Assembly (NCBI GenBank): GCA_024741835.1
Contig: JAENRP010000360.1
Location: 1 to 42,667 of the forward strand
Direction: 5' to 3'
DNA: 42,667 nt
Source of the DNA: Diplocarpon mali
Taxonomy: Eukaryota; Ascomycota; Leotiomycetes; Helotiales; Drepanopezizaceae
Shown: piece after piece, positions 479 to 42,667 of the stretch
Layout: every line of letters begins with the position of its first letter
How positions within the stretch are numbered: position 1 is the stretch's first letter
Notes under the pieces: model-generated
What the model was told of the DNA's origin: nothing
Seen by the model: only the letters and a program-made list of their open reading frames with translations
The model's database searches: none
Position numbers and translations under genes: made by a program

Positions 479-944
479 ACTTGCAGTCCTGGCTTAGGAG
501 TCGATTTCCTAGAAATGGCAAGATCTACTCGCGGTCCTGGCTTAGGAGTCGATTTCTTAGAAATAGCAAGATCCACTTACAGTCCTAGCTTAAGAGTCGA
601 TTCTAACGAATCTGCGAAGTTCACTTGCGGTCTTAGCTTAGGAGTTATTTCTGCGAATTTCACTTGCAATCTTAGCCTAAGAGTTATTATTAGCGAATCT
701 GCAGAATCCACTTGCAGTCCTAGCTTAAGAGTCATTTCTATTAAATTCACTTATAATCCTAGCTAAAGAGTTATCTTTAAGGATACTTTGCAATCTACTT
801 ATAGTCCTGGCTTAAGAGTTATTTTCGCAAACTTCACTTGCGATCCTAGCTTAAGAGTCCATCTATTCTCCTTATCCTTACTAAATTATATTAGGGCAGA
901 GAGTGCACTTTCCTTAAAGGAATCTACTTATAGGTCTGGCTTAA
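479..944 (-). repeat. In-frame array of ten 23-bp motifs (B2 copy)
   Basis: Copies of the 23-bp near-palindrome start at 479, 527, 575, 623, 662, 710, 749, 797, 836 and 927. The first eight intervals are 48 or 39 bp, multiples of three, so the array reads as protein repeats such as STxSPSLRV on the plus strand. The last copy is broken at 944 by a P LTR and its remainder continues at 1264. The apparent reading frame at 515-766 is only this array. Confidence 0.9.
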
Positions 945-964
945 TGTAGAGACCTAGAAGAAAA

Positions 965-1060
965 GGAGTCACGTGATAGTCACGTGACAATCGAGGAGTC
1001 ACGGGATAGAGAGTCGAAGGAGGAGTCATATGATATAAGTCACGTGACAAAGTCATATGA
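965..1060 (+). promoter_or_regulatory. CACGTG-rich repeats in the U3 of P-LTR1
   Basis: Palindromic CACGTG at 970, 981 and 1041, its double-transition form CATATG at 1027 and 1054, and a variant CACGGG at 999, most preceded by AGT or GGAGT. They resemble repeated binding sites for bHLH-type regulators. This is inferred from sequence only. Confidence 0.4.
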
Positions 1061-1080
1061 TCGGCTAAGGGTCGAAGGGG

Positions 1081-1090
1081 GTATAAATAG
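1081..1090 (+). promoter_or_regulatory. TATA box of the P LTR
   Basis: GTATAAATAG here corresponds to GTATATATAG in the other P LTR copies, just upstream of a conserved GGACYACTRTTGTACTTAGA that probably holds the transcription start. Confidence 0.5.
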
Positions 1091-1357
1091 GACTACTGTT
1101 GTACTTAGAGACAGCGCGCAATGCTAACTACCTATTCTACCCCTAACTAGTGAATTGTCCTAGTTCTTGTCTTCGGAGAGCCCGCTTGTAGTGCTTCCTC
1201 CCTCTTGTCTTTGGTCTTCACATAGGCCTATTCTTGTATTGTTCCTGCTCCCTCTTATATTAAGAGTCAATTTCTATAATATTACTATAAGAGGGAGCAG
1301 GAACAACACAAGAATAGGCCTATGTAAAGACCAAAGACAAAGAGGGAGGAAGCACCA

Positions 1358-1606
1358 TGTTACGGCCGCATCACGTGCACGGTTATATCACGTATCGGTC
1401 AGGTGCACAAAGTCAGGCGCACGCTAAGGTAGCAAGGTGGCTGGATCACGTGCACGCTAGTGAAGCACCTGTACTTATTCTGGAGGAGCTTTACTAAAGA
1501 CTCTCTCTCCTTTATCTTTTCTTTTCCATTATATAGTATACCTCTTGAGGTAATACAGTCAGCGTTCGATTCTCGCCTACTGTACGCTCTAGAGCTAGTC
1601 GTAATA
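1358..1606 (+). repeat. G 5' LTR
   Basis: It begins TGTTACGGCCGC and ends GTCGTAATA (from GTCGTAACA). It pairs with 8245-8493 over the same length. CACGTG palindromes near its start (CATCACGTGCAC) have become TACGTATAT in the 3' copy, a clear trace of RIP. Confidence 0.95.
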
Positions 1607-2526
1607 TAAGAAAAGATCAACTCAACCTCTGCTAAGAAGCTTAATATCTACCCCCTTTAGAATCGTCACTTCGAACTGCCTTAAGCAATTCGATCTTTCG
1701 ATTTTGATACTTCTACTACGAACTGCCCTAAGCAACTCGTATATAGCGCCTAGATCTTACTGATCTAGTTTTTAGAGAAAGCTAAGCAATAACCTTCGAA
1801 TATGAGATTAGCTCGTTTTTTTCGACTAACCTACTCCATTTTGCAAATGGAAATTCACCTTCAATTTCAATTTAAAAAAAAAAATTATTCACTATGCCCT
1901 CGCTTCGCTAGCGTAGGCTGCTGCCTAGAGCAGTATAATAACTTCTCTCTTCTCAACTCTCTCCCTCCCTTATAAATACTCTATACCACTCTTTTTCATC
2001 GACCTCATACTCGTCGATAATATACTCGTCGACAACTCTCCTTATACTCTTCGATACTCCCCCTCTTCTGCGAAAGCCTCGAATATAACTCGACTCTTCG
2101 AAGCCCCTTACTCCTTCCTTTGAAACACTTAGGTACGAAACTAAGGGACCTATACCTATATATATATATAGAGACTTGGTCAGCCTTAATAGGTTATACT
2201 ATACCGTTAGAGACTAAGTCAACTTTAGTAGAGTGATAAGCTTTAGATCCCTAGACCCTACTTCCCTAGATTTGCACTATACCCTTAGATAACCTTATTA
2301 TAACTCCTGATTAGTAAAGAGATATAATCCTAAAGTAAAACCTTCTTTCTTAAGATCTATAAACCTATAATACCTTAATATATACTCTACTAAAAGGCTT
2401 TAAGAATATATATAGCTCTGCTTATACTAATCTTCCCCTTTTTAAATAGGTTACTATTTAGCATTAGGTCCCTTTAGACTAAACTAGATAATATAGAAAG
2501 AGTTAGTACTTATAACCTCCAATCTT
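1607..2526 (+). other. G leader region, no gene seen
   Basis: AT-rich, low-complexity leader between LTR and gag. A partial duplication (CGAACTGCCYTAAGCAA at ~1674 and ~1720) and pyrimidine-rich stretches (1930-2110) are visible. I could not recognise a tRNA-complementary primer site after the LTR. Confidence 0.6.
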
Positions 2527-2570
2527 ATGCCACTTAGGAGAAGTAAAAGGTTAACCGCACCTTTACCACC

Positions 2571-2766: not shown

Positions 2767-2789
2767 ACTCTTAGGCCTAGACTGCAAGT
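2767..2789 (+). repeat. 23-bp motif in G gag
   Basis: ACTCTTAGGCC-type left arm and GCAAGT right arm. Read in frame as TLRPRLQV. Confidence 0.85.
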
Positions 2790-4541
2790 AGATTCTTAAA
2801 ATACTCCCCTTCTATCGATTGAAGTTAAGGAAGAACTAATATCTACTCTTACTATATTAGTCCCTCTCTTCTTAGCTGCTTAGCAGGCCGAAATCGCAAA
2901 CCTTATTAGCGCTACTATAGCCGCTGCTCTTTAAAATAATACTACTGCCCCTTCTTCCTTAAGTGCTAGCCCTTAGAATACTCGGTCCCTTACTGCCGAC
3001 TTGCTGCCTCCCTTAGACTACTACCTTTTAATCATTAGACCTTTAGTCCTAGCCGTCGACTCCTATCGAATTAAGTACCTTTAAACCTATTTTAATAACT
3101 ATTAAGGCAAAATCACTTATAACGCTTAAAAGATAGCTATAAAGGTATTTATTTAAAAGTACTTAAGTAACTTTACTTTAAGAGAAGATTAGATTACTAC
3201 CTACTTTAAGTATATAATAGGTAAAGCTTAAAACCTAATCTTATAATATATAGATCCTATCTTTACTAATAAGTTTATATATACTACTAATATCCTTAAG
3301 GTCTTAGATTAAAGGTTCTTTAACTATAATTACATTTAGTCTATTAAGCTTAAATATAGTAAGCTAATTATAGGTTTAATATTATATAATAAGTTTTAAT
3401 TTAAGTTCGTTACCCTTGCTATAGCTAATAAGATCGATTAGTCTCGCTAATTCGATAATATCTATAAAAAGGTCTCCTTAGCTTTAAAGAACGACCTTTA
3501 AGTAAAGAAGTATAAAATAAATAATAATTATACTACTTTAAATAAATTCTTAGTTATTGCAGACTATAAGGCCTATAATATTAAGTAAGAAGAAGCCTAT
3601 AATATTCGATAAGTTGCCCTTGCTATTGCCTTCTTCCCTTTAAAGGACCGCGTCCTTAGCATATTGAAAAGGGAGTTATAAAGACCTATAGCTATAGCTA
3701 CTTCCTTAGCTCTTTGCACTTATTCTCCCTTGCCGGCGGCTTATTAAGAAAGGTCTGCCAGCCTAAAGCCGTCGTCTAGTCTCTACTATAACTATAGAGT
3801 CCTTAATTATTATATAATAGACTGCCTTAAGCTAAAGAAGTAGGGCAAGTTTATAATAGCTAAAGTTAAGATGGAAAACGACCTACTATTAGGAAACTGC
3901 TAAGCTATAGCAAAGACTCCTATTATAGTATAGGTTATAATTTATAAAAAGACTTAAATTTTAATTCCTACCTATTAATAAGCGGCCGCCAGTTTTTAAT
4001 TCTTATAGAACTAGCTTAAAATAGATCATTTATTAAAATAGTTACCTATATTAATAATAAAGCTAATATTTTCAGTATTATTAAAACATCTTTAGTATAC
4101 TAGCTCTCTTAAAGACTTAAGGTAAAGTTCATTAAACTGCTTAAACCGATTACCCCTACTAGCTATAATAGCCTTAAGGGAGAAACCATTCGATTTGCTA
4201 TCTTACTTATCCTTATAATCGATAGGCGATAAATAAACTTCCCTTTTTTAATTATAAGCTTAAGAGCAACTGACGTTTTAATTAGTAAGAAGTTCTTAAA
4301 GTACTATAACCTTAAATAATCCTATAGAAAAGGGAAAAATAGTATATCTTAATTTAAGGATATGCCTATTATCTCCTACTTTAATCGATGCGTATTAATC
4401 GATCTCTTATAGCTAATAAAACCCCTAATAGCCTAATAAGATATCGATTATTAAGCAGCTATAATAAATGCTAAGGATAAAGACCTAAGAATAGCCTGAG
4501 CCTAGCTCTTAGTGCTAGCAAGTAATAACGCCTCGAATCCT

Positions 4542-4654
4542 ACTCCTAGTCCTAGCCTGCGAGTAAAATCTACGAACTCGAATCCTACTCCTGGTCCTAG
4601 CCTGCGAGTGAAATCTATAAACTTGAATCTCACTCTTAGTCCTAGCCTGCAAGT
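4542..4654 (+). repeat. Three 23-bp motifs at 45-bp spacing in G pol
   Basis: Copies at 4542-4564, 4587-4609 and 4632-4654, with a 22-bp linker. In frame they read TPSPSLRV, TPGPSLRV and TLSPSLQV. They lie between protease and reverse transcriptase. Confidence 0.92.
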
Positions 4655-6519: not shown

Positions 6520-6587
6520 ACTCTTAGGCCTGCCCTACAAGTGACTTTAGCGCAAATCAATTCCACTCCCGGGCCTGGCCTACAAGT
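6520..6587 (+). repeat. Two 23-bp motifs at 45-bp spacing in G pol
   Basis: Copies at 6520-6542 and 6565-6587, read TLRPALQV and TPGPGLQV, between RNase H and integrase. The second (CCCGGGCCTGGCC centre) is among the best palindromes. Confidence 0.92.
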
Positions 6588-9383: not shown

Positions 9384-12300
9384 ATAGCAATAGCTTCCGA
9401 TTCTAATCGAAATACCAGACCTAAAGACCTCTAACTCTTTCGAAAGAACTAGTAATAATAGTTCGACAATTTAGAGCTTTACTTTAAGAGCAAAGGCATT
9501 GAAATAGCGATTTAAAAGACACTTATTAAATACGCAAGAATAGCCCCTTATACTCCCTCTACTAATTCGTCTACTTCTACTTTAATAGCTAATATAACTA
9601 CTAAGGATTTGCTAGATATATTAAATAAGCTTAGCTTAAGAGCCTTAGTAGATAATAATCGAAAATCCCAAAGGCAGATTTTAAATATGGAAAAGGAAAA
9701 GGAGTATAAGCTGGCCTTAGCTAAATGCAAGCTTAAGATTAATAGAGGTTTAAGTAATAAAGATTAAGATTTTATTCAAGTTTATAATAATATAAAGATA
9801 AGATAGGATACTTTAAAGGTAAAATACTCTTAAATAACTGCCCTTAATACCTAGTATCTACTATAGCAGATCACTTTATTTTAGTATAGAAAAGATAAAG
9901 ATAGTAAGGATATAGATATAAATATAGACTCTGCTTAATCTATATTATATAAAGTAAAGAGGAGAGTAAAAGCCGCAGATCTTAGGATAGCTATAACTTT
10001 GAAAGAAACTTAGCTTTTTAGTTTCTTACTTAATAGCCTCCCTCTTAAGTTTGCTATTATAAAACAATCTCTTCTTATTTAACCTAACCTTAAGATTTAT
10101 AAGAAGATCGACTTCCTTCGAACTGTCGAATAAGACCTCGAAGGACGCTTTAAATCGGCAAATGCCATATTATAAGGTAATAATAAGCCTAAGAAGAGGA
10201 AGGAGCGTAGGATAAGCCCTTAAGCTTATCGGGGATGCTACTTCTATAATAGTGCTTATAATATTACTAATTATAAAGTTAAAAGGCAATTAATCGATAT
10301 AGTTGCTAGCTTTAATATTAAAAAGCAATCGAAGCAGAAGTTAAGAAGCAAACTGCCCTTATCCTACCAAAGGCCGCAACTATTAAGGAAAGTTAAAGGA
10401 AAAGGCTATTTAGCTAGAACTTTAGCAGATACCTTTAATAATAATAATAGGTTATTTGAACTTAAATCCACTTCTAATAATTCAAATGATAATTATAATA
10501 AAGATACTTATATTTTAAAAGCCGATCTTTATAAGATCCTTGAATCCGATTGGTATAGTAATACTAATTATATAGCATATATAACTAATAAACCCTACCT
10601 ATTTAAAGGCCCGCTTATTAAAATAAAAAGGCGCTCTATTAAAGTTAGTAGTAAAAGGTTATATACAGACTCAATAGGTATAGTAGAGATGAATATCGCT
10701 AGCATTTCTTTCCTTTTATAAAATGTTCTCCTTATGCTTAGCTTAAGTATTAATCTTTTATTTAACCGCAAGATCTATATAGAGTTGAATTATATAAGAG
10801 TTTTTAATAATTAATTTATATAATTTATAAATAATAATTATAAAGTGATCTTTAAGGCTAAAATCAAAGATAGACTTTATATTATCTCAAAGGTGATATT
10901 ATAGAAATTGACTCCTAAGCCAGACTTATAAGTGGATTCCTTTAAGGAAAGTGCACTCTTTACCCTAATATAATTAAGTAAGGATAAGGAGAATAGATAG
11001 ACTCTTAAGCTAGGATTATAAGTGAAATTTATAAAAATAACTCTTAAGCTAAGACTATAGGTAAATTATAAGGTATCTTTAAAGGTGACTCTTAAGCTAG
11101 GATTATAAGTGAATTTAGTAGAAATAACTCTTAAGCTAAGACTATAAGTGGATTCTATAAATTTACTAATAACGACTCTTAAGCTAGGATTATAAGTGAA
11201 ATTTATAAAAATGACTCTTAAGCTAAGATCGCGAGTAAAATTCGCGAATTCGTTAGAAATGACTCTTAAGCTAAAACTATAAGTAGATTTTGCTATTTCT
11301 AGGAAACCGACTCTTAAGCTAGGACTGCGAGTAGATCTTGCGGTTTTATTAAAAACGACTCTTAAGTTAGGCTTATAATTGAAAAATAGCAAAACCTTAA
11401 ACTACTATTACTAGTCCTTTTTAGCTGCTAATAACAAAGTATCGATTGATAATAGGCTATTAAAGCTATTAGAAGTCGAAAGCCTATTAAAGTATTAGCT
11501 AATATATAAAAGATTTGCGCATTTAAGGCTAAAGAAATTAAGGGGCCTATATAAGGTCTTAACCTTAAAATAGAAGATCTAAGTATTAAAGGATCGCCTA
11601 GTATACCGAATTTGCAAGCTAATAAAACTTCGAAATCAGATATAAACTAAGCTTAATTTATAGAAAGATTTAATACTAGCGCTAATATCTATTAATACTA
11701 CTAGACTATTTATAACTTTAATAAAAGGAAATAATTAGTTTTCTTAAATAGTAGATAACTCTACTTAATAGATATAGACTATTTATATTAAAACTAAATC
11801 TAAGCTTATAGAAAAGTTAAAAACTTGGAAAGTGATAAAGGAATGCTAGACCTAGTTAAAGCTAATAGCTATTAGGTCTAATAATATATTAGAGATTAGG
11901 GCAAAGCTTAATAAATAGGCAAAATAAGGAGTTTATTATAAACTAACTATAATATATAAAGGTTCCTATTAAAATAGTATTACTAAGCAAAGTATCTAGC
12001 AAGTAGAGACTAACTATTACGCTTTATTATAAGATATTAACCTACTATTGGAATTCTAGGACCTTACGGTTAAAGCAGATATATACTTACGAAATAAAAT
12101 AGGTAGTAGACTAATAGTTAATAGTATTTGAATATTACTATATAAGGCATATTTCGGATAGAAACTAAGCCTAGACTATATCTATATCTTTAAAAGTGTC
12201 TACTACTCTTATATTAGCTTAAAGTCCTAGCCTATAGGTATAAAGAGTAAGAAGCTAATAGACTAAGGTAGAGAATATATATTTGTTTAGTATATTAAAT

Positions 12301-14491: not shown

Positions 14492-14641
14492 ACTCCTAGG
14501 CCCGCCCCGCGAGTTAGGTCATATAGTCTTATAAAGGAAAGTTTTTTAAATCAACTCCTAGGCCTAGACCGCAAGTTAAGTCATATAATCTTATAAAGGA
14601 ACGCTTTTAGGAAAATTAACTCCTAGTCCTACCTTGCGAGT
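14492..14641 (+). repeat. Three 23-bp motifs downstream of B1 pol
   Basis: Copies at 14492-14514, 14554-14576 and 14619-14641. Their spacings, 62 and 65 bp, are not multiples of three, and they lie past the likely end of pol, so here the motif spreads as DNA and not as a protein repeat. The linkers share TCATATARTCTTATAAAGGAA. Confidence 0.9.
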
Positions 14642-14771
14642 AGAGTTTAGTGATTTCAATAGAGGTTGCTATTAATTGATTGTTTTTAATTTAAAGAGAT
14701 ACTTAAAAGTTAGATTAGCGTAAAAGGATAGTTATTATTTTCCTAATTGCAGGTCAATCGGAGTAAGGTCT

Positions 14772-14780
14772 AAGTAGGGG
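14772..14780 (+). other. B1 polypurine tract
   Basis: AAGTAGGGG directly before the 3' LTR. The inverted B3 copy has CCCTTACTT at 26414-26422. Confidence 0.65.
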
Positions 14781-14864
14781 TATTAAGATAGGTAATATAG
14801 CTATTACTCTAATGTATTATCATATGACCCTACTGCTTAATCAATAGGATATTAATACATATAT

Positions 14865-15475: not shown

Positions 15476-15496
15476 AGACTCTTTATTAAAGAGTCA
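15476..15496. other. Perfect short hairpin
   Basis: GACTCTTT, loop ATT, AAAGAGTC. It is a strong isolated stem in the 3' region of C. No run of T follows that would mark a bacterial-type terminator, and its role is unknown. Confidence 0.4.
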
Positions 15497-16852: not shown

Positions 16853-16929
16853 AGGAATATATCTCGCAGTAAAATAAAATAAAAAAAATTGCCAATAGCT
16901 TGCAATCAAAAATATCGGATATTGTCAAT

Positions 16930-23719: not shown

Positions 23720-23999
23720 TATGCCTTAACTAACTTAAGTAGCGGCCCCTGCTACTATTAGTAAAGAATAAAAGACTCTTGTAAGTTGAGAATACTAATC
23801 CCTATTTGCAAAAACAATAAGTATAAGTAAGGTTAGTACCTAAAGTTGTAAAGGTAGGGAGAGGAGAGAGGGTTTTTTTTTTTTTTTTTTTTTTTAAACC
23901 TATAGGTTGGGCCTGCGAGTGGATTTCAAAGAAATATATAGAAGGAGAGGGGAAAGGGGGGAGGTGCGGTAGTAAACGAATAAAAATGATAAAAACTCC
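23720..23999 (-). other. P-short 3' end, poly-T run and unmatched sequence
   Basis: Includes a run of 23 T (23873-23895), i.e. poly-A on the element strand, and a GGGAGAGGAGAGAGGG purine tract beside it. A degenerate 23-bp motif lies at 23898-23920. No reading frame was recognised. Confidence 0.6.
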
Positions 24000-24020: not shown

Positions 24021-24043
24021 ACTCCTAAGCTAGGCCCGCGAGT
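24021..24043 (-). repeat. 23-bp motif
   Basis: ACTCCTAAGCT left arm with GCCCGCGAGT right arm, near the end of the P-short gag region. Confidence 0.9.
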
Positions 24044-24450: not shown

Positions 24451-24473
24451 ACTCTTAAGCTAGGACTATAAGT
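24451..24473 (-). repeat. 23-bp motif in P-short gag
   Basis: Reads TYSPSLRV in the gag frame. It sits at the same place as the copy at 29313 in P-long (TCGPDLRV). Confidence 0.88.
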
Positions 24474-25426: not shown

Positions 25427-25449
25427 ACTCGCAGGCCTGGCCTAGGAGT
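25427..25449 (-). repeat. 23-bp motif, well preserved
   Basis: ACTCGCAGGCC then TGGCCTAGGAGT. The inner arms GGCC/GGCC and outer ACTC/GAGT pair. It lies in the P-short leader; the P-long counterpart is at 28304. Confidence 0.92.
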
Positions 25450-26552: not shown

Positions 26553-26704
26553 ACTTGCAAGGCAGGACCAGGAGTCAATTTTCCTAAAAGCGTTCCTTTA
26601 TAAGACTACGTGACTTGACTCGCGGTCTAGGCCTAGGAGTCGATTTAAAAAAAACTTTCCTTTATAAGACTATATAACCTAACTCGCAGGGTAGGCCTAG
26701 GAGT
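26553..26704 (-). repeat. Three 23-bp motifs in B3
   Basis: Copies at 26553, 26618 and 26682, the inverted counterparts of 14619, 14554 and 14492, with nearly the same spacing. Confidence 0.92.
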
Positions 26705-27632: not shown

Positions 27633-28349
27633 TTAGTAACCTATACAAGGACCGATTTCTTAAGATTTCCATCCCTATACAACCTTATTAATCTCTTAGT
27701 TCGTAGATAAGAGACCGGCCTTTGAAATACGTCTTCGAAACACTTATAGTATTTTAATCAACTCCAAAACCTTATCCTTAATCGCTTAATTACTTAGAAC
27801 TATCGATTTTCGTTTAGCAACTATTAACAACCTTAGATTTTCCCTTTTCGGCTCTGCTTTAAAAACCCCTATTTTCTTCCTTAACTCTGAGATTTTCGGA
27901 ATTTTCGGCTTCTTAGTATGAAAAGTTTGGCGAACCTTATAATAGCAATCTTAAATAGCAGTAGTTTCAAGTACTTAAGTAATATTAAGCGCAAACTCCA
28001 ATTAGAAGTGCCTTCTTAGAATCTTTAAAAATCCGAATCTGATAATTCAGCCGCCTTAGCTAAATAGAACTTTAAGAATTGCCTTAGAATTGTCTTTAAA
28101 GACCCCTTTATTCTAAGGACTAATAGGAATTAGCCTAAAGGCTAAGAAGAATCTTAAATATAAACCTTATCTTAGAAATTAGTCCTTAATTAAGTAAACC
28201 TTATCTTATTACAATTAGTTGCAACGCTCCTATTAGCTATTTAGCACCTACTTAGAATCTCTTAGCAAACTTAGATTAAACTTTTAATAGAATCCGGAAT
28301 TCTACTCCTAGGCCTAGCCTATAAGTAAGAGGATAAAAAGACGTCTTTA
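27633..28349 (+). other. P-long leader, no gene seen
   Basis: Starts TTAGTAACCTATACAAGG at the primer-site position; P-short has TTAGTGATCTATATAAGG there. The tRNA is not recognised. Homologous to the P-short leader. A 23-bp motif is at 28304-28326. Confidence 0.6.
28304..28326 (+). repeat. 23-bp motif in P-long leader
   Basis: ACTCCTAGGCC left arm, AGCCTATAAGT right arm. Confidence 0.9.
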
Positions 28350-31200
28350 AATAACTTAAGACTGCTACTTACTTTTTTAATATTAATACTAGAAAATACT
28401 AAAAATAATAACAATTTTAAACTTTTTACTAACCCTTTATCTAAATCTTTTCAAACTCGTCCTAATCACTCTAAGATTGACTCAGATTCTGAATATTCTT
28501 TAAGCCCTTTTAAATTTCGAAGTACTCCTCTTAATAATCAATCTCGCAATATTAAAGCTTCTCCTTTACCCCTTATAGATTCTATTAACTTAAACAGTTA
28601 GTATAAAACGATAATAGCCGCATTTAGGGCTATTACTAGTCACTTTCCCCTCCTTAATTCCCCTAGCACTCCTCACTTCACAAGCGCTAATATTACTAAT
28701 TTCCTTAAGCAATATAAGGAAACTTATTACAATTTTAATATTATATAAAAGGATATGATTTCTCAACTTCCTTACTACTATAATTATATAAGTAAGGATA
28801 TTATTAAGTCCCTTCCCAAATAGAAAACTTATAGTTTATAGGAACTCCTTATCAAGGCCCTTAAATCTGAATTTCGCAAATTTGATAAATAGCAGATTCG
28901 CAATACCCTAGCTTTCTTAAAGGAATTTATTCTAATCACTTATACTCTTAAGGAACTTAAGAACTACTATTAGACTTTTACTTATATATCGAATACCTTA
29001 ATCAGCTAGAAAATACTTAGCGAAGTTGAAAGAGGCCGCCTTTTCTTACTTAGATTACCTACTAGCCTTCGAAATAAGATTATTAAGCATTTCAAGATCG
29101 ATAAGCAAGACCTTATAACCTTCGCCTCATTTAAGGAATTCGCAGCCTTTACTTTAAAATCAGATCTTAATAAGAGAACTATTAATGCTATAAAGTAGGA
29201 AAAAGCCCCTACTCCCTCTTATACTAAAGACCTTAAGAGCCTAGTCCAAGAATATTCAAAGGCTTTAGAAGTTATAAAAGAGGCAAAGAAGAACCTAGTA
29301 GTTATACCCTTTACTTGCGGTCCTGACTTAAGAGTAAGATCCAACCTTAGAATTAAAGAACTTAAGACCCAATTTGCAAAACTCTAAATTTAAAGCTTAG
29401 AAACTAGGATTAATAATCTCTTATAAGAAAAATAGCATATTCCCTAATTTAGTAATAGGCAAAACTCGACTACTATAAGCTAATATAGTAGTTCCTATTA
29501 CCAGACTCCTGCTTCTTATTATTCGGAATAACCAGCTAATATAAGAACTTAATAGTTAACTAAAGAAGGAGAAATTAATCCTAACTAGCACTCTACTAAT
29601 ATTAATACTATAGGGTACTAAGGGAATAGCAATAGAAGACAACTAACCTGCAACTTTTGCAATAATAAAGAACCCAATTGCGCTCTATATAAGTATTGCA
29701 ACGATTGCCCTCTTTTCTATCGTTTTATTAACACTAGGGTTATGCATATTAATAAGTATAAGATGCTTTGCATTAGAGATCCTAAGCTAAAAGCTATCCC
29801 TATTAAAAAGCACCAGAATCGCTTATGGTTATAGACTATTCGAACGATAATATATAGTATGAAATAGGATAAGAATTTAGTCGAACGATAGCATATTATA
29901 GATATAAATGCTAAAATTCCAACTTATATATATACTAGTCCAACTAGCAACCTACCTAAGGGAGTTCTTAAAGACCTAGCTTTTAATCAAACAGCTATAG
30001 AAGTTAAAGGCATCTCTATCTTAGGATAGGTTAATAATAATATATCTGCTGATATTAATACTACTTCTATATCTAAAAACCCTTAGAATACTTAGCGTCC
30101 TTCTAAATCTACTACTCCCCTAATACTAATAAAACCAGCTAAAGTCCAGAAATCAATGCGTGCAACTTAGGAATCTTAATATAGAATCCAAACGCTAAAA
30201 GATACTTAACAATTTAAAACTGCAGTAGATAAGGATAAAGCCGATATAGTAGACAAATTGATTAGAGATATAATAGATAAAGATAGCTTTAAGCTTAAAG
30301 ATTAAGAAGTTGAAGTTATTACGCAGACCCTTAACCTTAAGCGAAAGAGACAGATGTTAAAATAGGAAAAATTCGTCGATAAATACGCTAGTTCAACTGC
30401 AATAGAGAAAGCCATAGAGAATATTATAGCCTAGCAAATTAACCTTATATTTAAAGACCTATTTAGTTTAACTAAACGCTTTAATAAAGTACTAGGAAAG
30501 TATATCCCAATTGCCTTTAAAGATTTGAATAATAATAAGGAAATGGAAATTATAATATAAAAGAACTTTAAAAAGTACTTAACCTTAATCAAATGTCTTT
30601 AGATTGCAGAAAATGAAGGAACTTAAAGGTACTATAATATTATAGCAATAGCTTTAATATCTTAGAATATCAATCGAAATTGTTTAGCAGTTGCGATAAA
30701 AAGCCCTATTATTATTTATTTAATAGAAGAATCAGTTAAAGCAAAGGCTTTAATCGATTATAGTTTAGAAGTTAATATAATAATTAGAAAAGTGGCAGAA
30801 ATAGCTCGATTGATAATCGTTAGCGATCGACTCTTTATTTATTCGACTATCTTTAGATCGAAATACAATTTTAATAGATAGGTGAAAAACGTAAAGGTTA
30901 GAGTTAAAGGAATTGTTAATTATATTGACTTTCTAATAATAGAGAATTCTTTAAATAACATTCTTTTAAAAATGCCCTTTATTTTAAAATCTTAGCTAAT
31001 ATTTAACTATCTTAAAGATAGTCTTATAAAAGCTAGTCTTTAGAATATAGATCGATCTTTAAAAAGACAAATGGTTATCGCAAGAGATATAGCTGAATTT
31101 TAAAATAAAGTTTTAGGAAACGATTAGCTAGCATAAGGGCTAGGCTTAATACTAGTAAAGGAAGGCACCTAGCGAGGAGTTATAGCAAAAGAAAGGTAAG
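28350..31200 (+). pseudogene. P-long gag with C-terminal protease-like part, degenerate
   Basis: One frame with many TAA/TAG. N-terminal segment with HSKIDSDSEYSLSPF (~28470); capsid-like helices after FTSANITNFLKQYKETY (~28680); NLVVIPFTCGPDLRV with a 23-bp motif (29313); zinc-finger-like cysteines CNFCNNKEPNC..YKYCNDC (~29650); a long charged segment; and a protease-like stretch KAKALIDYSLEVNIII (~30750), where the family has D-[ST]-G. The boundary with pol is unclear, as pol lies in another frame. The start is not fixed; the first codons with clear similarity to P-short are near 28380 (ENTKNN). Confidence 0.75.
29313..29335 (+). repeat. 23-bp motif in P-long gag
   Basis: ACTTGCGGTCC then TGACTTAAGAGT, read TCGPDLRV. 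It shares position with 24451 in P-short. Confidence 0.9.
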
Positions 31201-31549
31201 TTTGCCGATTTTGAATAATAGTAATTTGACTCGCGGTCCTAGACTAGGAGTCAAATTTAGAATTTTAAAAAATAGTACAATCGGCGTTTTATTAGCTTAA
31301 CAATTAAGAAAAAAGAAAAATAAGGTAAAGAAGAGAGTTTGTTTTATAAATTTCGATAATTCACTAATCATTTTGAAAAACTTAAAAACCACTTATAGGC
31401 CGGACTTGCAAATGAAAAACAATAAAATTACTAATAATATTTCTATCTACGCACTTTAAATTAATAATTTAGAAAATCTTTTATTTATTTTTAAAAAGGA
31501 AAATTCGGACCGTTTCGCAAGATTTGATAAAAAAGGAAAGAAGTAAAGA
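31201..31549 (+). other. Gag-pol junction of P-long
   Basis: No clear frame. Two 23-bp motifs: 31229-31251 (ACTCGCGGTCC...CTAGGAGT, well preserved) and 31391-31413 (degenerate). Confidence 0.55.
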
Positions 31550-33357: not shown

Positions 33358-33380
33358 ACTCGCAAGCCTAGCCTGCGAGT
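33358..33380 (+). repeat. 23-bp motif in P-long pol, different phase
   Basis: Outer arms ACTCGCA and TGCGAGT pair over seven bases. In the pol frame it is read in another phase than elsewhere (TRLASLACES), so the usual T-P-x-P-x-L-x-V reading is not obligatory. Confidence 0.88.
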
Positions 33381-34792: not shown

Positions 34793-34815
34793 ACCTATAA
34801 GCCGGTCCTATAAGT
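34793..34815 (+). repeat. 23-bp motif near the end of P-long pol
   Basis: RIP-worn: ACCTATAAGCC then GGTCCTATAAGT, read TYKPVLQV. Confidence 0.75.
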
Positions 34816-34897
34816 AAAGAATATCAAAATACCTAACTAATCGCGACCTTAAGTTATTATTCTTAAAATATCCGAAGAACGTAAGTAGGAATATTAA

Positions 34898-35230
34898 ACG
34901 ATTTCCTAGCCTATCAATTGTCTTACCTTCCTCTAATCCTTATTTTTATATTTTCAATAAGGTCGCCTCCTTTATTATTTAAGATATAGATCTTTTAGGA
35001 TCACCTTAAATTCTTACCTACTCTAACTTATTTTATATTCTTAATATTAGCCTTTAATTATAATATTCCTATTACTTTCCTTAAATAATAAATAAAAAGT
35101 CCAATTTCCTTAATATATATATAGCAAACCTATTGCAGCTTATATGCCCTTTTAATTCTTATACCCTATTAAACTCTCTTATTTATACTCCCTATCTTTT
35201 ATAAGTAATATACCTTTAAAGAACTTACAA
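34898..35230 (+). other. Gap between P-long pol and X1
   Basis: AT- and pyrimidine-rich; CT-rich runs (34918-34945, 35160-35200) just upstream of the X1 start look like fungal promoter sequence. No LTR end, target duplication or reading frame seen. Confidence 0.5.
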
Positions 35231-36055
35231 ATGGTTTTATCTGCTGCGATAAGGGATAAATAAGCACTAGTTATAAACTTCTCTTAGGATAGTAGAGCTA
35301 TTGCATTATTAGAGAACTTCAAATCGACCTACGCAGCCTTAGGAAATATAAAGTAATAAAAACTCCTTTTAACTTACGCGAATGCTATTAGTAACCTTTT
35401 AACCCAGATGGCCTTTGGAATTCTCTAATTTGACGACTTCTTAATCGAAGAATTAAGACTAAAGGGAATCTCTAAAGAGGAATTCTTAGCTAATGCAAAT
35501 TAATATATGACCTTGGTTAATACTTTTAGAATAGACCGAGATAAAAGGGAAGAATCTATTTAACAATTGGATAATTTAGCTACTAATAAGAGAGGACTTT
35601 TATTTCGTTCACGTTTCCTAATAAATATTGATTCTAATAATAGAAGGCGAGTATTATTAAAAATTCTTGAGGAAAACACTCCTATAGCTAGAGCTATTCA
35701 AATTCTTAATTTCTTTATCATTTAAAAAGGAGTAGCAAAATTCTAAGGCAATCGAATTCGCAGTCGCAGATTTATAGGCTTATCTAATGCAGTACTTATA
35801 ATAGTTAATAGAGTTATAAAAAGATCAAATTAGGCTATAGATATTACCCTATCTAATAGTACTATTGTTAATATGCTAAGGCTCTGCGCTTCTACTTATG
35901 GTTTGCTTATTTTAAAAGAAAACTAGACTCTTATACTAGAGTTTAGATAAGATTTCTTTAATAATAAAGAAGAGAATTGGTTATTTATAATTAAGCCTAC
36001 TTTGAAATTCGCCTCTTAACCTAAAGATATAATAAGCACTGAACTATATAATTTA

Positions 36056-36078
36056 ACTCGCGGTCTTAGATTAGGAGT
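36056..36078 (+). repeat. 23-bp motif in X1 (first)
   Basis: ACTCGCGGTCT then AGATTAGGAGT; read in frame as TRGLRLGV, the reverse-orientation reading. The X2 equivalent is 39976. Confidence 0.9.
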
Positions 36079-37441
36079 TAGAAATGAGAATTTTAAAACT
36101 GGACCCAACCTGCCTTTTATTAAAATAATTCTAAAAACCGCTGCCGAATAGACTGCTCGAACGCTTAGCGCAGCCTCTTTGGAATTTTCGGAATCTTCAA
36201 AGGACTCTCCTTTAGCTAAACAATCAATTTTAGCTCAACCTTTAAAAAGGATAGATCGTTCGATAGCCACCTTAGCTAATTTGCAATTTAAAACCAAAGG
36301 ATTGCGCGCTTGCTTAAACTCCTTCTCTAATAACTTAAAGGAGCTAGTTCTTAACTTCTTTATATCTATATGCAATCGATTTAAAAACGATAATATAAGG
36401 GAAGACCCTATTCCTCCTACTCTAAAGATAACTAAGAGAGCTATTAGATAGATTCAATAGCTTATCCTAGATGAATTTACCCTTATAGATATTATTCAAT
36501 TCTTTAATAATTATAAAAGTTAAGAACCTAGTCTTTTAAATGCTAAGTAGGACTATTTTATCTTACAAGAAAGAGAACGCGAAGAGGAATCTATTAATTA
36601 AGACATTTGTAATTATAGCAATATGCCTCAATCGGTTATTCTCAACCTTAAACTTAAAGAATGATATAATATTCAAGTGTCCTTTATAATAAAAACTCGC
36701 TTTCGATAGTATCTTCCTAGCGTAGGAATCGAAGGAAGAAGACTTTGCAACTTTTATATTCGCTCTCTTTCGATTTACTATAGTCTTAATTATAAAGGAT
36801 TTAATATTAACGAAATCATTAAATACCTCAAACTTCTCTATATAGCAGAAGATATTGATCTTTTTCTAATCCACTTTAATAATTAATTCTTCGTCTCTTT
36901 AAGGATACGCAAATCCAACCTATTAATAATAGAGGCATCTTTAAGTGCTATAAAATTCAGGGCTGATCCTAAAGCCTTAAAGGCATTAAAGCCAATTAAA
37001 TAGAATAATTCCTTCTTATCAATATTGCTAAATAATAAACAGTAAGAGGAAATAGAGGAAGAAGGGTCAATTGTAATGCCTAAACCCTTCGGATGCCGCT
37101 TCCTAACCGACAATTTTACTACTAATGATAGTGCTTTTATAAATACATTCCTCTCTATTATAAGATAAGAAGCAAAGATGTATCTTTATTACTTCTACCT
37201 TATAGATAGCGCGACCTTTATACCTTCTTATTTTCTTTATAATATAATATTCAATCTCACTTAATAAGTCCTTCGAATGTACTATAGACTCTACCTCTTA
37301 GTTATAATAGCAAGAAGTAGAGGAACCTATCAGCTTATAGCCTACCTCGAACCTCCCTAATTGATTAGCCTTAGTCTTTATAATTAAGTCGTTTCGATAA
37401 AGAGAGATATAAGTGCTACTAATAAAGAAATTCCGATTTTC

Positions 37442-37464
37442 ACTTGCGGTCTTGGCCTATAAGT
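37442..37464 (+). repeat. 23-bp motif in X1 (second)
   Basis: ACTTGCGGTCT then TGGCCTATAAGT, read TCGLGLQV. The X2 equivalent is 41392. Confidence 0.88.
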
Positions 37465-38326
37465 CAATTTTATTAAAAAGCAAGTCTTAGATTATCAGAT
37501 CTTACTAATCGAATAAGGGCCAGCTTCTAAAAGCCTTAATAGGTAGGTCGGCTCTTAATCGAGTATAAAACTCACTCTATCTATAAAGAAGATAAGTCGA
37601 TAGACTTCTTAAGCACTTAGTTCAAAATCTCAACTAGCTTAAATAACTGTAAAATTAAAGCGAAAGGAGATCTTGCGACCTATTACTAATAATAGCAATC
37701 CAATTATAGTAATAATAAAATAAGGATACCTTTTTAAAATGCTTTTGGACAATCCTTATAGGACTAGTGGTTTTATAACCTTTTGCAATAATTATATAGC
37801 CATTTGCGATAAAAACACCTTAGAAAATGAGACTCGAATCTCCAATCTTATCTTTTTAGTTTCTACTTTAAAGTAACCTCTAGTACTTCGATAGATTAAT
37901 ACAAGTAGGACTACTGCACCTTTTAAGGCAGCTTTTCATCTTAAGAACTATAGCAGCCTCTTTAAAGCCATTATTAATCGACGCTCTTAGACAGATCTAT
38001 CAGTTATAATCGAAGTATAAGAGTTGTTTCTTCTTAATAAAGACGAATTGAAAATCCACTTTATAAAATATAATCAGAAGCTCTTTAATGCCCTTATTAA
38101 AGCCTAGATAAATATTATAAACACTAAGTCGCTTCTTTATAGACTTAAGTCTTAAAGATAATGCGATAAAGTAAATACTATCTAAGAGCCTAATGCACTA
38201 ATTGATAAAGGTATTATTATAAGAAAATTCGAAAAAGAGACGAACTAAGACGCTAGTATAATATTAGACCCTGATTTAGGAACTAATCCCCTATTTTTAC
38301 CCTTAAGTTTAGAAACGCTAAGACTG

Positions 38327-38349
38327 ACTCGCGAGCCCGGCCTGCGAGT
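38327..38349 (+). repeat. 23-bp motif in X1 (third)
   Basis: ACTCGCGAGCC then CGGCCTGCGAGT, read TREPGLRV, GC-rich and little altered. The X2 equivalent is 42214. Confidence 0.9.
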
Positions 38350-38602
38350 GAGGTTGGACTCGGCTAGCTTAAGCCTACGAGAAGGTTCGGATGAACCTCG
38401 GTTACCAAATCTAGGAGTACTAATAGAAGATCCTTTAAAAAAGGTTCCTAAAGCTAAGAAATCGCTAAGAAATAAGAACTAATATAAGAGAAGAAGACTC
38501 TAAAGTGATAATAGAACTGACAATTAAGTCGACTCAATCTAGAGAATTATAGTCTACTCCCCCTTTGAAAACCATTTAAAGAAATTGCAAATTAGATATT
38601 GA

Positions 38603-39087
38603 ATTTTTTTAAGATTATCTACTTTCTATATACTTACACCTCTTTATTCTCTATTTATTATTCTATTCTATATATATTCTTTACTCTACTTCGTTCTTTA
38701 TATGATCTACCCTTTGATTATTTCCTTTATATACAACTTTCTAACGCTTACCTTTGAAATGTTATCCTTACCTTTAAAGAATTATCATTTACTAATTATA
38801 GGTCCTTATATGCGTTATACCCTACTTTTGTTCCTACTTCTAAGCTTATTATGCCCACTTTTCCTTTATATACTAGCGCGATTCTAAACTCTATAAATAA
38901 GCCTCTTCCTATACAACGATTTTACTTTTTTTTACTTTCTCTACAACCCTATTAGACCTATAATACTAGCACTACTATTATTGTCTTTCTATTATTAATC
39001 TTTTCTAGTATAGGCCTCCTATATTGTTAATCTTTCTTAAATAATCATCTCTTTATTTAGAGCTACCCCCCTGCCGACTAATTCATT
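38603..39087 (+). other. Gap between X1 and X2
   Basis: Very AT-rich, with pyrimidine tracts and poly-T (38928-38942). The short open frame at 38702-38887 is Leu/Ile/Phe-rich, as expected of CT-rich noncoding sequence, and I do not call it a gene. No repeats or LTR ends seen. Confidence 0.5.
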
Positions 39088-39975
39088 ATAGCACTATTAA
39101 GCTCAAATAAGAAAGCCATACTTAAGAAGAATATATCAGTTATTGCCTTAGGCAGCAAGTTAATAAATACTACTAGTAATAAGCTAATGTTAGAGGGTGG
39201 CTTTTTATAAGAGGGCAAGTTATTAAGATCATTAGAAGATATAGTAAGTACTTATAAAATATTAGGTAAAATAGAATAATAGGTATTCCTAAACTTATCT
39301 ATTAAAGTATTGAACTATAGAATCTCTATAGTTAAAGAAGGATTTTTAGGCTTCGATGATTTTCTTAAGAATAAGCTTAAGATAAAGGGAATCGATTGTG
39401 AAAAATTCCTATAGGAATATTAAAGGTATGCTAATTCAGTTGATCTATTTCAAAAGAATTGAGATAAGAAAAATAAGTGTATAAAAAGGTTATTGCAGTT
39501 TATAAGTAGCACCTATAGTACACTTTTTCAAATATACTTTATAATTGATATTACCGCTAATAACGCCTTACAAGGGCTCGGCAAAATTTTTAAGATATAT
39601 TAACTAATAGCAAAGGCTATATAGGTATTGAATTATTTCACTATTTAAGAGGGTATGAAAAAGCTGCAGGGAAATAGTACGCGAGGTAGAAAATTTATAG
39701 GTTTCTCAAGTACTATTATCTACTCTGCTATTTAGACTATAAAGGACAGCCCCTTCTAGTATAATAATATTGCATTACTAGACTAAATAGTTCTAGATAC
39801 CCTCGGTTTGCAATAGTTATAATATAGTTTACTTATTATAAAGGAAAAGATGATCTATCTAGTTGAGTATACTATAAACTACTTCAATAATAAGATAGAA
39901 AGATAGGAGTTTATTATACCTACCGCTTAGAAAATGCTACTACCTTTAGAAGATTTAACTAATAAGTAAAATTTG

Positions 39976-39998
39976 ACTCGTAGGCCCGGCCTATAGGT
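39976..39998 (+). repeat. 23-bp motif in X2 (first)
   Basis: ACTCGTAGGCC then CGGCCTATAGGT, read TRRPGLQV, after FNNK-E-...-FII as in X1. Confidence 0.88.
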
Positions 39999-40161
39999 GG
40001 AAGTACTATATAAGGAGGATATCCTTAAGCCGGAGGTGCTTATAATACTTAGAACTCAAATAGCTAACTATTGCGATTATTAATCATTAGACTCAGACGA
40101 GTTTGATTCACCGTTCCTAGAGATGCCTTAAATACCTAGAATACCAGTAGTAAAGAAGTTA

Positions 40162-40184
40162 ATTTATAAGCCTGGCCTATAGGT
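40162..40184 (+). repeat. 23-bp motif in X2, extra degenerate copy
   Basis: ATTTATAAGCC then TGGCCTATAGGT, read IYKPGLQV. X1 has no counterpart that I could find. Confidence 0.65.
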
Positions 40185-41391
40185 TAGAATATATAATAAT
40201 ATAGACTCTAAAGATGATCTGATAGATAAAGAGAATAACCCTATTACTAATATAATGGAAATTTTTAATAATATTAAGAAGGATACAGCCGATATTATAT
40301 AAACCTTTTCCGAAGACTTATAAAAATTTGTTTTAAAATTCTATAAGTTAATAATAAAGCGTTTGAAAAAGGAAGGTCAGGGAGAAGTTTTGCTAATATA
40401 GGAAGCGATGGCAAGAGCTATTAAATAAATCATAAAGCTATAATAAGACGAATTTTCTATAAACAATATTATGCATTTCTTTATTAAGTATAAGAAATCA
40501 AAGGGCGACTACTATATCCTTAAAGAAAAGCTAGAAAATAGTATAATAATCATATCTATAGAGTGCTATAAAGTTCCCTTTAATATTAAGATAATACTTT
40601 AATATAGCAATAGATTCAAGATTGCGATAATACTAAAGATGAAGATACGATTGAGCAAATTTGTAATAGGGATGTTTAAGGACTTTAGTTTCGAAAAATT
40701 TTATACTCTATATAAACGATAATATATATAATATTATAGGCTAATAACGGTATCTCTGACTAATAAGCAAGTTTCCTCTAATATATATAAATTTTGCACT
40801 GCACTCGACCTAAAGTTGTTTTTACTATACCTAGGGAATTATGCAATTGTAGCTACTAGTAATAGAATAGCAAGCTAGATTAAGAAAGATGTATTATTAG
40901 GTTTTGCTAAGTTTAAGGTAGAGCCTAAAGCTTTGAAATTATTCTATAATATCGCCTGGACTCCCGCTTAATATAGTACTATACTAACTAGTAATAACCT
41001 AATATTACTTTATAGCAAAGGTTTTTTAAATATACCTAAATTATTCAGCTGCGCTTTCCTAAGTACTATACGCACGCATAGTTATAATAATTATAGAAAG
41101 AATTCATTTTTAACATTAGCATAAGAGGAGCTAGAAATGTACCGATACCATTTCCGGACCTTAGATAAGAAGCCAAGTCCCCCTTCTGCCTTCCTTTATA
41201 ATATGACTTATAGCTTGATATAGCAGACCTTAAGGATGCACTATAGTCTATATCTTAGTGCTCTATTAACTTATTATAATTCTTTATATAAGCTAGTAGC
41301 GTATCCTAAGCTTATATAGTTTATAGGTATTAACTACTATTCGCAAATTGTTTCTACTAAGATTAACGCTAATATAAGATTCGTAAGATTG

Positions 41392-41414
41392 ACTCCTAGG
41401 CCTAGCTCGTAGGT
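41392..41414 (+). repeat. 23-bp motif in X2 (second)
   Basis: ACTCCTAGGCC then TAGCTCGTAGGT, read TPRPSSQV, followed by DYYMIL (X1: DYQILL). Confidence 0.88.
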
Positions 41415-42213
41415 TAATCCACCTAATAATAGAACTATTGACTACTATATGATTCTAGCAGCTAAATAATCGACCGGAGAATTTGCTATATAGGAAAAGT
41501 CTTATAAGTCATCTATACTTATACCCTATCGCCTTAAGAACTCTTAGTAGATCTTATTAAATCTGGCATAAAGCGCAGCTTAATAGAAAGAATTAAATAC
41601 TAAAGATAGAATAATTCTAAAGGAGTATATCTCTAATAAGACTACTCTATTCTTAGTATTTATAAGACAAGGCACCTTTATTAACTTAGATTCTGATAGA
41701 AAACTTAAAAAGGGTGGTTTTCTCGCTATTAGTAATAATTATACAGAAGTTATTAGCAATAAATCACTTGAGAATAGCGCTAACTTAGAAGAATTCATTA
41801 TCGATTCCATTTGCATAAAGAAACTAAGCATAGTAAGATAGAATATTGCTAGAGAAGCCTTAGCTAAGTTTTATATAACACTTAGTATAATAAAAGGTAG
41901 TCTACTATCAGACGCTCTTATAAGAAGACAATTATAGAGTGATCTATTAGTAGTAATGACTATAAAGGATTTGTTTATAAAAGACGTATCTTAGCTAATA
42001 GCATATCTAAAGAAGTATAAATAAGAACTTTTTAAAGATTTTGCTAGTACTTAAAAGCTAGTTTAATAACTAGAGCTATAGTTATATAGCAATAAGTCTT
42101 AGATAAAGACCAAAGATATAGATGATAATATCGAAGCTGATAATATAATTAATAAGACGATACTCCTTAAGAAGTATAGCACTAAGAAGCCTTATATAAA
42201 GACACCTGATATA

Positions 42214-42236
42214 ACTCCTAGGCCTAGCTTACAACT
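42214..42236 (+). repeat. 23-bp motif in X2 (third)
   Basis: ACTCCTAGGCC then TAGCTTACAACT, read TPRPSLQL, in the tail region as in X1. Confidence 0.85.
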
Positions 42237-42552
42237 TGATCTATTAAAGGGTAAGGCTAAGGAAGTAGTGTTTATAGAATCTCCTACCTCTCCCTCCTCT
42301 ATTACCGACAATTCCCTTAAGGATAATAACAATAATAATAACGATAATGCTACTATATAAGTCTCTCTTTCTATTAGCAGAAGCCGTCATACTATACTAG
42401 CATCCGCAAGGAGCATAGAAGCTCCTGCCATACCGAGACCTACCTTATTAGATACTAATAGCAATGCTATAAGAAGAAGTAGTCGTTTGGCAAAGAGAGT
42501 ATTATCTAATGATAGTTCTCCCTATCCTTTAAAGAGAACTAAGGAAAACTGA

Positions 42553-42667
42553 CGCTTAGGTTAGTTCTATTTTAATTGTTTTTTTTGCGATTCTATAGCT
42601 TATTTGTTTGTTTTGCTGGTTTCTTTTTCTAACTCCTGGGCCTGGCCCGTAGGTGAAAAGCGCATAT
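42553..42667 (+). other. Sequence after X2
   Basis: T-rich, then a GC-rich, little-altered 23-bp motif at 42632-42654 (ACTCCTGGGCC and GGCCCGTAGGT arms). No frame or LTR seen. Confidence 0.6.

Follow-up and report, generated by a model that had tools for sequence, protein, structure and literature searches.

The 23-mer and its host elements in the window

The window, a stretch of 42,667 nucleotides from Diplocarpon mali (contig JAENRP010000360.1), holds Ty3 and Copia LTR-retrotransposons, two regions (X1 and X2) without a match to any Pfam family, and 47 copies of a 23-bp dyad-symmetric element, the 23-mer, that score at least 14 bits with a weight matrix. These copies are arranged as follows.

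479..858, minus strand: array of nine 23-mers at 48/39-bp spacing (weight-matrix matches at 479, 527, 575, 623, 662, 710, 749, 797 and 836); site cluster shared, reversed, with the 10911 array
2767..2789, plus strand: single 23-mer, gag side of Ty3 element A (weight matrix; 47/47 flank-anchored copies genome-wide are 23 bp)
4542..4654, plus strand: three 23-mers at a 45-bp period upstream of the element A RT, in phase with the RT domain (RVT_1 in frame window:2403; 4542-2403 divisible by 3); 165 genome matches to the stretch
6520..6587, plus strand: two 23-mers at 45-bp spacing, 3' of the element A RNase H, in phase (frame window:2401, RT_RNaseH at residues 1213-1316, 23-mers at residues 1373 and 1388); close copies of the site have one or two units
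10911..11380, plus strand: array of ten 23-mers upstream of the first Copia RT (weight matrix), all in phase with that RT (RVT_2 in frame window:10803; all ten starts minus 10803 divisible by 3)
14492..14641, plus strand: three 23-mers 3' of the Copia RT at 62- and 65-bp spacing, not codon-periodic; first unit filled in 95/95 flank-anchored copies
23898..23920, minus strand: worn single 23-mer adjoining a T run (weight matrix)
24021..24043, plus strand: single 23-mer (weight matrix)
24451..24473, plus strand: single 23-mer, site cluster in common with 29313 (weight matrix and clustering)
25427..25449, minus strand: near-consensus single 23-mer (strict search and weight matrix)
26553..26704, minus strand: three 23-mers, second copy of the Copia tail cluster (weight matrix and clustering)
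28304..28326, plus strand: single 23-mer, 5' part of Ty3 element P (weight matrix)
29313..29335, minus strand: single 23-mer, gag side of element P (55/55 flank-anchored copies are 23 bp)
31229..31251, minus strand: single 23-mer, element P, in the RNase H frame if there is no intervening frame change
31391..31413, plus strand: worn 23-mer (15.0 bits), element P, frame as for 31229..31251
33358..33380, plus strand: GC/GC-type 23-mer, element P, RNase H-integrase interval, read in another frame (frame window:28001, RNaseH 1599-1705, Integrase_H2C2 1861-1917, site at about residue 1786); 175 flank-anchored copies, 23 bp in 100/100 listed
36056..36078, minus strand: single 23-mer, unclassified region X1, no Pfam match (weight matrix)
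37442..37464, minus strand: single 23-mer, X1 (weight matrix)
38327..38349, minus strand: GC/GC-type 23-mer, X1 (weight matrix)
39976..39998, plus strand: single 23-mer, X2 (weight matrix)
41392..41414, plus strand: single 23-mer, X2 (weight matrix)
42214..42236, plus strand: single 23-mer, X2 (weight matrix)
42632..42654, plus strand: single 23-mer, end of X2 (weight matrix)

By eye, protease-like sequence precedes the 10911..11380 array and pre-integrase-like sequence follows it.

An earlier note had described the copies as fixed in length at 23 bp and present in both orientations, and both statements hold. The hardly mutated element at ~14.9-22.9 kb is free of copies, as the note had said (none between 14642 and 23897). 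The six copies it had counted in one Ty3 element were found at 2767, 4542, 4587, 4632, 6520 and 6565, and its three plus three tail copies at 14492-14641 and 26553-26704. Two other counts needed correction: where two arrays of ten had been seen, the second has ten units (10911-11380) and the first has nine (479-858), and the singles cover the range given, from 23898 to 42654, but number 16 and not about 18. Some units are worn or shortened. One in the ten-unit array (~10950-10980) is, by eye, beyond recognition, and in stretches L009 and L028 one unit retains 8 of its 23 bp.

Copy number, hosts and placement

The 23-mer observation is confirmed. A strict search (at most 3 mismatches) detected 12 copies in the window, whereas 100 shuffles gave none. 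The weight matrix, trained on the window and 20 stretches of ~10 kb each from the same genome, gave 213 copies at 14 bits or more in these 242,666 bases, and none in the reversed sequences. The count is nearly independent of threshold (214 at 12 bits, 212 at 18, 207 at 20), with the reversed control at 0 throughout. Genome-wide (49.4 Mb), a mutation-tolerant pattern matched 6,575 sites and the backwards controls 0. Sampled copies lie inside repeats, and on contig 1 three islands hold 41 of the 42 sites, the remaining one, at 292.1 kb, lying elsewhere in ~490 kb. Ten solitary half-sites lie outside motif copies, compared with 3 in the reversed control, numbers too low for a conclusion. Our literature search found no description of this 23-bp dyad element, two protein searches for homologs elsewhere returned no matches, and the viral and prokaryote collections do not contain the exact motif.

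The hosts belong to at least four LTR-retrotransposon families, two Ty3 and two Copia, in which the copies occupy 23 independent sites with differing flanks. This is far above chance and upholds the earlier description of a discrete 23-bp dyad element in several unrelated families. Most of these sites lie in phase between polyprotein domains, or else in 3' tails, and in eight of the nine clusters with a Pfam-anchored frame the 23-mer begins on a codon boundary. Unit number is variable within families. The 23-mer seems to be placed where harm to the element proteins is small.

Apparent constraint on the DNA

The 23-mer seems to be constrained and preserved as DNA, judging by where it changes. 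Comparing the modal sequences of the 23 sites with the consensus, 24 of 25 transversions fall at positions 5, 9, 12, 14, 15 and 19 (binomial 2e-13), as do 23 of 27 polymorphism events within families (2e-10); the six positions were picked post hoc, and both p values stay <1e-4 after multiplication by the ~100,000 choices of six from 23. True tandem units vary at the 17 other positions in 3 of 153 cases, against 35 of 272 for their spacers (Fisher 6e-5), and at the six positions in 6 of 54, which is spacer-like. These figures supersede a cruder array comparison (Fisher 2e-14) that pooled spacers and outer flanks and overstated the contrast. Copies recruited by their flanks only (100 + 47 + 55) have just 3 transversions outside the six positions. 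The flanking bases are also regular, with Y at -2 in 23/23 sites and R at +2 in 22/23. The six variable positions are largely mirrored about the dyad, with a mirror correlation of 0.93 over 11 pairs that is mainly due to pair 9/15; position 14 has no varying mirror. Changes distributed in this way suggest a DNA site under selection, a reading absent from the earlier note.

The degree of constraint may be overstated, since most copies were recruited by motif likeness and decay has made one or more array units unrecognisable. A recent common origin would likewise keep copies alike, and some peptide constraint may coexist.

Mobility and descent

The 23-mer had been proposed to be mobile or actively copied, and active mobility is not supported. 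At four flank-anchored sites, all 297 copies read (100 listed of 175, plus 47/47, 55/55 and 95/95) are exactly 23 bp and none is empty. Signs of target duplication are weak: direct flank identity over 7 bp is 120 against 105.8 expected, and similarity at 4, 7 and 10 bp has p values of 0.037, 0.025 and 0.029, uncorrected, with ten lengths tried. There is no perfect target duplication >2 bp among 38 flank clusters. Compared with a MITE, in which terminal inverted repeats lie between target-site duplications, the 23-mer has the dyad, with these flank values for the duplication. Arm variants at one site follow subfamilies. At the integrase-side site of element P, transversions reach 0.017 per base in the motif and 0.002 in the flanks (13 copies), about eightfold; exchange between sites was considered here and dropped, as the variants track subfamily markers over 3.2 kb. 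Vertical inheritance holds within families and leaves the sharing between unrelated families unexplained.

Mobility in the past is a different matter, though we consider it doubtful. A 23-bp selfish insert may once have spread through retrotransposon ancestors, by a transposase or by reverse-transcriptase template switching, leaving vertically inherited relics as the present copies. The fixed length and the 23 independent sites in four or more families would fit such an insert, as would the position in phase between domains, in the sole phase open in both orientations, and the direct flank similarity given above. Two distant Ty3 relatives (L011 and L027) have a matching linker with no 23-mer, that of L027 being ~60 bp shorter than the linker of element A, so the 23-mer was gained or lost in the past and is not needed by every element. 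However, these linkers align poorly and are not clean empty sites, and no empty site occurs among the copies read. The tandem units are also less changed at the 17 motif positions than the spacers between them, and a focus of change on six positions is unexpected for a dead relic.

Hairpin, peptide and tandem growth

An RNA or single-stranded DNA hairpin in element transcripts, acting as a packaging, dimerisation, translation or reverse-transcription signal, is improbable. It would be consistent with the RNA fold of the 36-mer (~-12 kcal/mol in both orientations, z ~-3) and has a precedent in the conserved hairpin site of fungal GalEa Copia elements (PMC5445492). Pair 9/15, however, does not covary, being complementary in 108 copies against 118 expected, and positions 5 and 19 are mismatched in nearly all copies (both pyrimidines in 195/213), which favours half-sites over a hairpin. 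Only pair 8/16 is complementary more often than expected (140 vs 121). The presence of both orientations relative to coding, the several sites per element and 0 Rfam matches at gathering scores also speak against a hairpin.

The palindrome could instead be the by-product of a conserved linker peptide, T-P-x-P-x-L-R-V, located for instance at processing sites of the polyprotein; such a peptide would account for the common phase of eight of nine anchored-frame clusters and for the sites between domains. We do not favour it and regard it as very improbable, since the codon-position test goes largely against it. Transversions at the four-fold positions 3, 6, 18 and 21 number 0, 0, 1 and 0 in 213 copies, and with such near-invariance the peptide cannot by itself be what is preserved. 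In that phase, the tolerated changes at 5, 9, 14, 15 and 19 are mostly non-synonymous. The integrase-side site of element P is read in another frame, and the Copia tail, which is not codon-periodic, also keeps the 17 positions (0/17 vary, six units).

Ordinary tandem-repeat growth with vertical descent in a few repeat families fits the variable unit number and the confinement of sampled copies to repeats, but the attribution of between-family likeness to chance or old homology is already contradicted by flanks that differ among the 23 sites of the Ty3 and Copia elements and by a backwards control of 0 against 6,575, and this explanation has very little probability left.

A possible shared recognition site

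Our preferred reading, which we hold tentatively and from sequence comparison, is that the 23-mer may be a cis-acting, dyad-symmetric recognition site in duplex DNA that selection maintains and that unrelated retrotransposons have in common. The site would consist of an ACTCSYAGKC half-site and its inverted counterpart, separated by a 3-bp centre and bordered by AT-rich shoulders (a pyrimidine at -2, a purine at +2). Its carriers are unrelated LTR-retrotransposon families, two Ty3, two Copia and perhaps the X regions, with several copies each, at positions where harm is presumably small: between polyprotein domains, in phase, or in 3' tails. In active elements, selection would keep the DNA sequence, and dead copies would then be worn by a RIP-like C-to-T process. 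A dimeric sequence-specific protein, made by the elements or by the host, would most likely bind the sites, and this predicted binding would help element expression, escape from silencing or targeting. The analysis yielded no candidate for such a protein, and neither X region has a Pfam match.

Half-site variants were compared between sites of the same element for signs of joint switching. The gag site of element A was found in 13 copies, 11 of which have the linker array in the same stretch. The five G-type arrays all go with a G/C gag site, the five T-type arrays all go with a gag site that has T at 9 or A at 15, and the remaining copy is mixed. This concordance may be mere linkage. The RNase H-side site of element A remains G. 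For element P, matching by eye gave 16 site pairs, and these showed no link (T9/C15 5, T9/A15 1, G9/A15 5, G9/C15 5). A bolder proposal, which we think unlikely, is that unrelated Ty3 and Copia elements converged on, or parasitised, one putative dimeric DNA-binding protein via in-frame 23-bp linker sites. These sites would form a shared anti-silencing, activation or targeting code, and the joint switch of half-site variants (AGGC vs AGTC) at two sites of one family would represent element-protein co-evolution.

Comparison with known systems

There are several known systems with features of the 23-mer. The VANC motifs of Arabidopsis VANDAL transposons, as described in PMC5735166, are also short transposon-repeated DNA motifs, often in tandem arrays and with variants between relatives; the VANC6 motif also occurs in the unrelated AT9TSD1. 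They are 8-9 bp long and non-coding, with a known element-encoded binding protein, whereas the 23-mer is a 23-bp dyad of fungal LTR retrotransposons with a predicted binder. Most of its anchored clusters lie inside polyprotein frames; the tail units of the first Copia element are not codon-periodic. Rickettsia palindromic elements, in the summary given in PMC2996958, occur in bacterial housekeeping genes and are taken as insertions. They too are palindromic DNA in frame at assorted sites, in their case in unstructured protein parts. The sampled 23-mers lie in retrotransposons, with no empty site among the copies read, and it is the DNA rather than the peptide that looks conserved. The same source describes PARCELs, coding tandem repeats with dyad symmetry that are tied to mobile elements in some taxa. 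PARCELs are a 25-residue protein repeat with a varying palindrome, whereas the 23-mer is fixed in sequence, its peptide varies, and its codon-periodic units are 39, 45, 48 or 54 bp.

The Conserved Hairpin Site of GalEa Copia elements is likewise a palindrome in fungal retrotransposons, and its extended site is common to distant families in five species (PMC5445492). It lies directly after the 5' LTR. The anchored 23-mer sites are internal or 3' of the RT, several per element, and occur in Ty3 elements too. Bacterial REP sequences are high-copy palindromes of 20-40 bp, but they are described as prokaryotic, extragenic and GTAG- or CGTC-tagged (PMC3733652), whereas the 23-mer consensus starts with ACTC and ends with GAGT.

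If the recognition-site reading is correct, unrelated retrotransposons share one cis-acting code, and polyprotein linkers can hold DNA-level sites. It would then be possible to test directly, in a fungus, whether elements and host compete over one DNA-binding protein, and 23 bp at 6,575 sites would be a clean handle for finding that protein.

Copy number and distribution

The recurrence of the 23-mer, whose consensus is ACTCCTAGGCC-T-RGCCTGCGAGT, is real: the window holds 12 copies at ≤3 mismatches, against none in 100 shuffles. At ≤2 mismatches, the source genome (49.37 Mb in 676 contigs, searched as a whole genome and, judging from its elements, that of a fungus) has 412 matches on the forward and 452 on the reverse strand. 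With a weight matrix built from the window and 20 further ~10-kb stretches (242,666 bases in all), 213 copies in those bases score ≥14 bits; 47 lie in the window, where the earlier note counted about 50. A self-complementary pattern allowing C-to-T wear matched 6,575 sites genome-wide; variants with C at position 14 are among the forms that it overlooks. Sites with the unworn form number 297. The backwards control (the same sequences reversed) gave zero for the two-mismatch, weight-matrix and wear-tolerant searches.

The DNA around the 213 copies, out to 1 kb, has 23-41% GC, and five 5-kb control stretches of 46-59% GC have no 23-mer, a result that is weak when taken alone. Contig 1, which is complete within the first 50 of the 6,575 sites listed, has 41 of its 42 sites in three islands (0.1-3.7, 394.9-441.9 and 506.7-522.8 kb). 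Its sole site outside the islands is a single 23-mer at ~292,109 (292.1 kb), at least ~100 kb from the nearest listed copy. Contig 2 has no site among the matches listed before contig 3 starts. All 21 top-ranked places of the two-mismatch search belong to clusters of sites that are also present at other loci; they were picked as best matches and hence are not a random sample.

Host elements

Flank clustering gave 27 clusters, which were merged by hand to 23 sites (19 into 7, 20 into 26, 21 into 5, 10 into 3). Pfam matches assign sites to two Ty3 and two Copia elements, bearing out the claim that the motif occurs in both groups.

Elements carrying the 23-mer, with Pfam matches
Ty3 element A (window): RVT_1, RNase H; SH3 match below the Pfam cut-off
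Ty3 element P (window): RNase H, integrase H2C2
First Copia (window): RVT_2
Second Copia (locus L011, same genome): SH3, RVT_2; gag match below the cut-off

The worn region at 35000-42667 has seven 23-mers and matched no Pfam family on either strand; it could be unrecognised parts of element P, or could code for an accessory protein. The reported absence from element C also holds: there is no copy in this hardly mutated element at ~14.9-22.9 kb (none in 14642-23897). It has ~46% GC and, by eye, ends resembling LTRs at about 14.87 and 22.61 kb; the neighbouring elements are worn and have copies. The stops and C-to-T/G-to-A changes in the elements fit repeat-induced point mutation, we infer. A separate 24/33-bp tandem repeat lies at 2572-2696, just ahead of the gag-side 23-mer of element A.

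Two further Ty3 elements have linkers without the 23-mer. One, on the opposite strand of L011, is 32.5% identical to A across the RNase H-integrase part; the other, in locus L027, has 36-49% identity and a linker ~60 bp shorter than that of A. Because linkers so distant align poorly, these two show only that the 23-mer is not in every Ty3 of the genome.

Reading frame

In eight of the nine clusters with a Pfam-anchored frame, the 23-mer begins with the first base of a codon. By simple arithmetic, the chance of at least eight at one in three is ~0.001.

Clusters with a Pfam-anchored frame
Element A, 4542: in phase
Element A, 6520: in phase
First Copia, ten-unit array, 10911: in phase
Second Copia, L011 5015: in phase
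Second Copia, L011 6479: in phase
Second Copia, L011 8468: in phase; 275 codons past RT, perhaps outside the ORF
Element P, 31229 and 31391: in phase, assuming no frame change across 1.5 kb
Element P, 33358: out of phase

The gag-side clusters at 2767, 28304 and 29313 and the tail clusters have no anchor and were excluded; 2767 and 28304 are in phase with RNase H frames, and 29313 is out of phase. Whichever way the consensus is oriented, the favoured phase is free of stops, and it is the sole phase for which this holds. All nine anchored clusters fall outside the Pfam matches of these searches.

Constraint on the DNA sequence

Only transversions were used to assess constraint, since the C-to-T process makes transitions uninformative. 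They are concentrated at positions 5, 9, 12, 14, 15 and 19, which account for 24 of 25 transversions from consensus at the 23 sites, 249 of 261 over copies and 23 of 27 events of within-family polymorphism. Counts at mirrored positions correlate at 0.93 (11 pairs), chiefly via pair 9/15. Among the 213 copies, four-fold positions 3, 6, 18 and 21 have 0, 0, 1 and 0 transversions, and four-fold position 12 has 96. Among true tandem units, sampled in six families, 3/153 of the other 17 positions, 35/272 spacer positions and 6/54 of the six positions are variable.

Because motif-based searching biases the sample, we also used copies chosen by their flanks. Transversions outside the six positions numbered 0 in 100 copies, 1 in 47 and 2 in 55, against ~38 expected from flank rates of 0.002, 0.017 and 0.022 (our own arithmetic; rates from 13, 12 and 4 copies), a contrast that is overstated because anchored copies may be closer kin. 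A crude flank-rate count in other families found the 23-mer no less variable than its flanks. At a fourth flank-anchored site (95 copies, by eye), one copy has a variant of another unit.

C-to-T wear over the 213 copies is 0.44, 0.34 and 0.29 at positions 5, 8 and 16 versus 0.01 and 0.06 at 2 and 22. Wear differs between CT contexts, and it may be context that protects the outer ACT and AGT.

Interpretation

The earlier note proposed a mobile or actively copied mini-element. Patterns anchored in the flanks, with a gap of 0 to 30 allowed, were searched for empty sites at four sites, and every copy read holds exactly 23 bp (100 listed of 175, 47/47, 55/55 and 95/95; lengths checked by script for the first three and from printed strings for the fourth), which argues against present mobility. 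In a six-frame search at the P site, 150 of 257 candidates were scored, and the rows listed align across the 23-mer. Array unit number varies, from one to five 45-bp units. Direct flank similarity was tested at ten lengths, three of which gave an uncorrected p of 0.025-0.037. Mobility may still account for the original spread of the 23-mer. At matching places in loci L009 (~2010-2019) and L028 (~3139-3148), one array unit of 23 bp has shrunk to 8 bp, perhaps by deletion inside the palindrome.

The palindrome could instead act as a hairpin, in RNA or single-stranded DNA. Folded as RNA, the 36-mer reaches ~-12 kcal/mol in either orientation (~-5 as DNA), and pair 8/16, alone, is complementary clearly above expectation (140 vs 121). 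However, the bases of pair 9/15 are complementary in 108/213 copies (118 expected), and in 195/213 both bases of pair 5/19 are pyrimidines. At position 9 the base is G or T (A in 2/213), and at position 15 it is C or A (T in 4/213), so that the two states are the identical half-site change, one per side; position 9 is polymorphic in seven families and position 15 in six. Such uncompensated change in each half is predicted by half-site recognition in duplex DNA. Variants at the P site track subfamilies. In element A, the linker-array type equals the gag-site type in all 10 unmixed loci, which could reflect co-evolution or linkage. The flanks have Y at -2 in 23/23 sites and R at +2 in 22/23, and these bases belong to a loose RAWTY shoulder that flanks the 23-mer on each side.

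The 23-mer was not found in the literature searched, where coverage of subscription papers and bioRxiv is limited, so its novelty is relative to that search; the two papers with literal matches to any of four 10- or 11-letter parts of the motif look unrelated. The VANC6 motif of Arabidopsis is also present in the unrelated AT9TSD1, so motif sharing between unrelated elements exists (PMC5735166). VANC motifs are short and non-coding, and the parallel is one of likeness, not membership (PMC5735166). The 23-mer would most likely be a duplex-DNA site under selection, recognised by a putative sequence-specific and probably dimeric protein, and would be common to several retrotransposon families.
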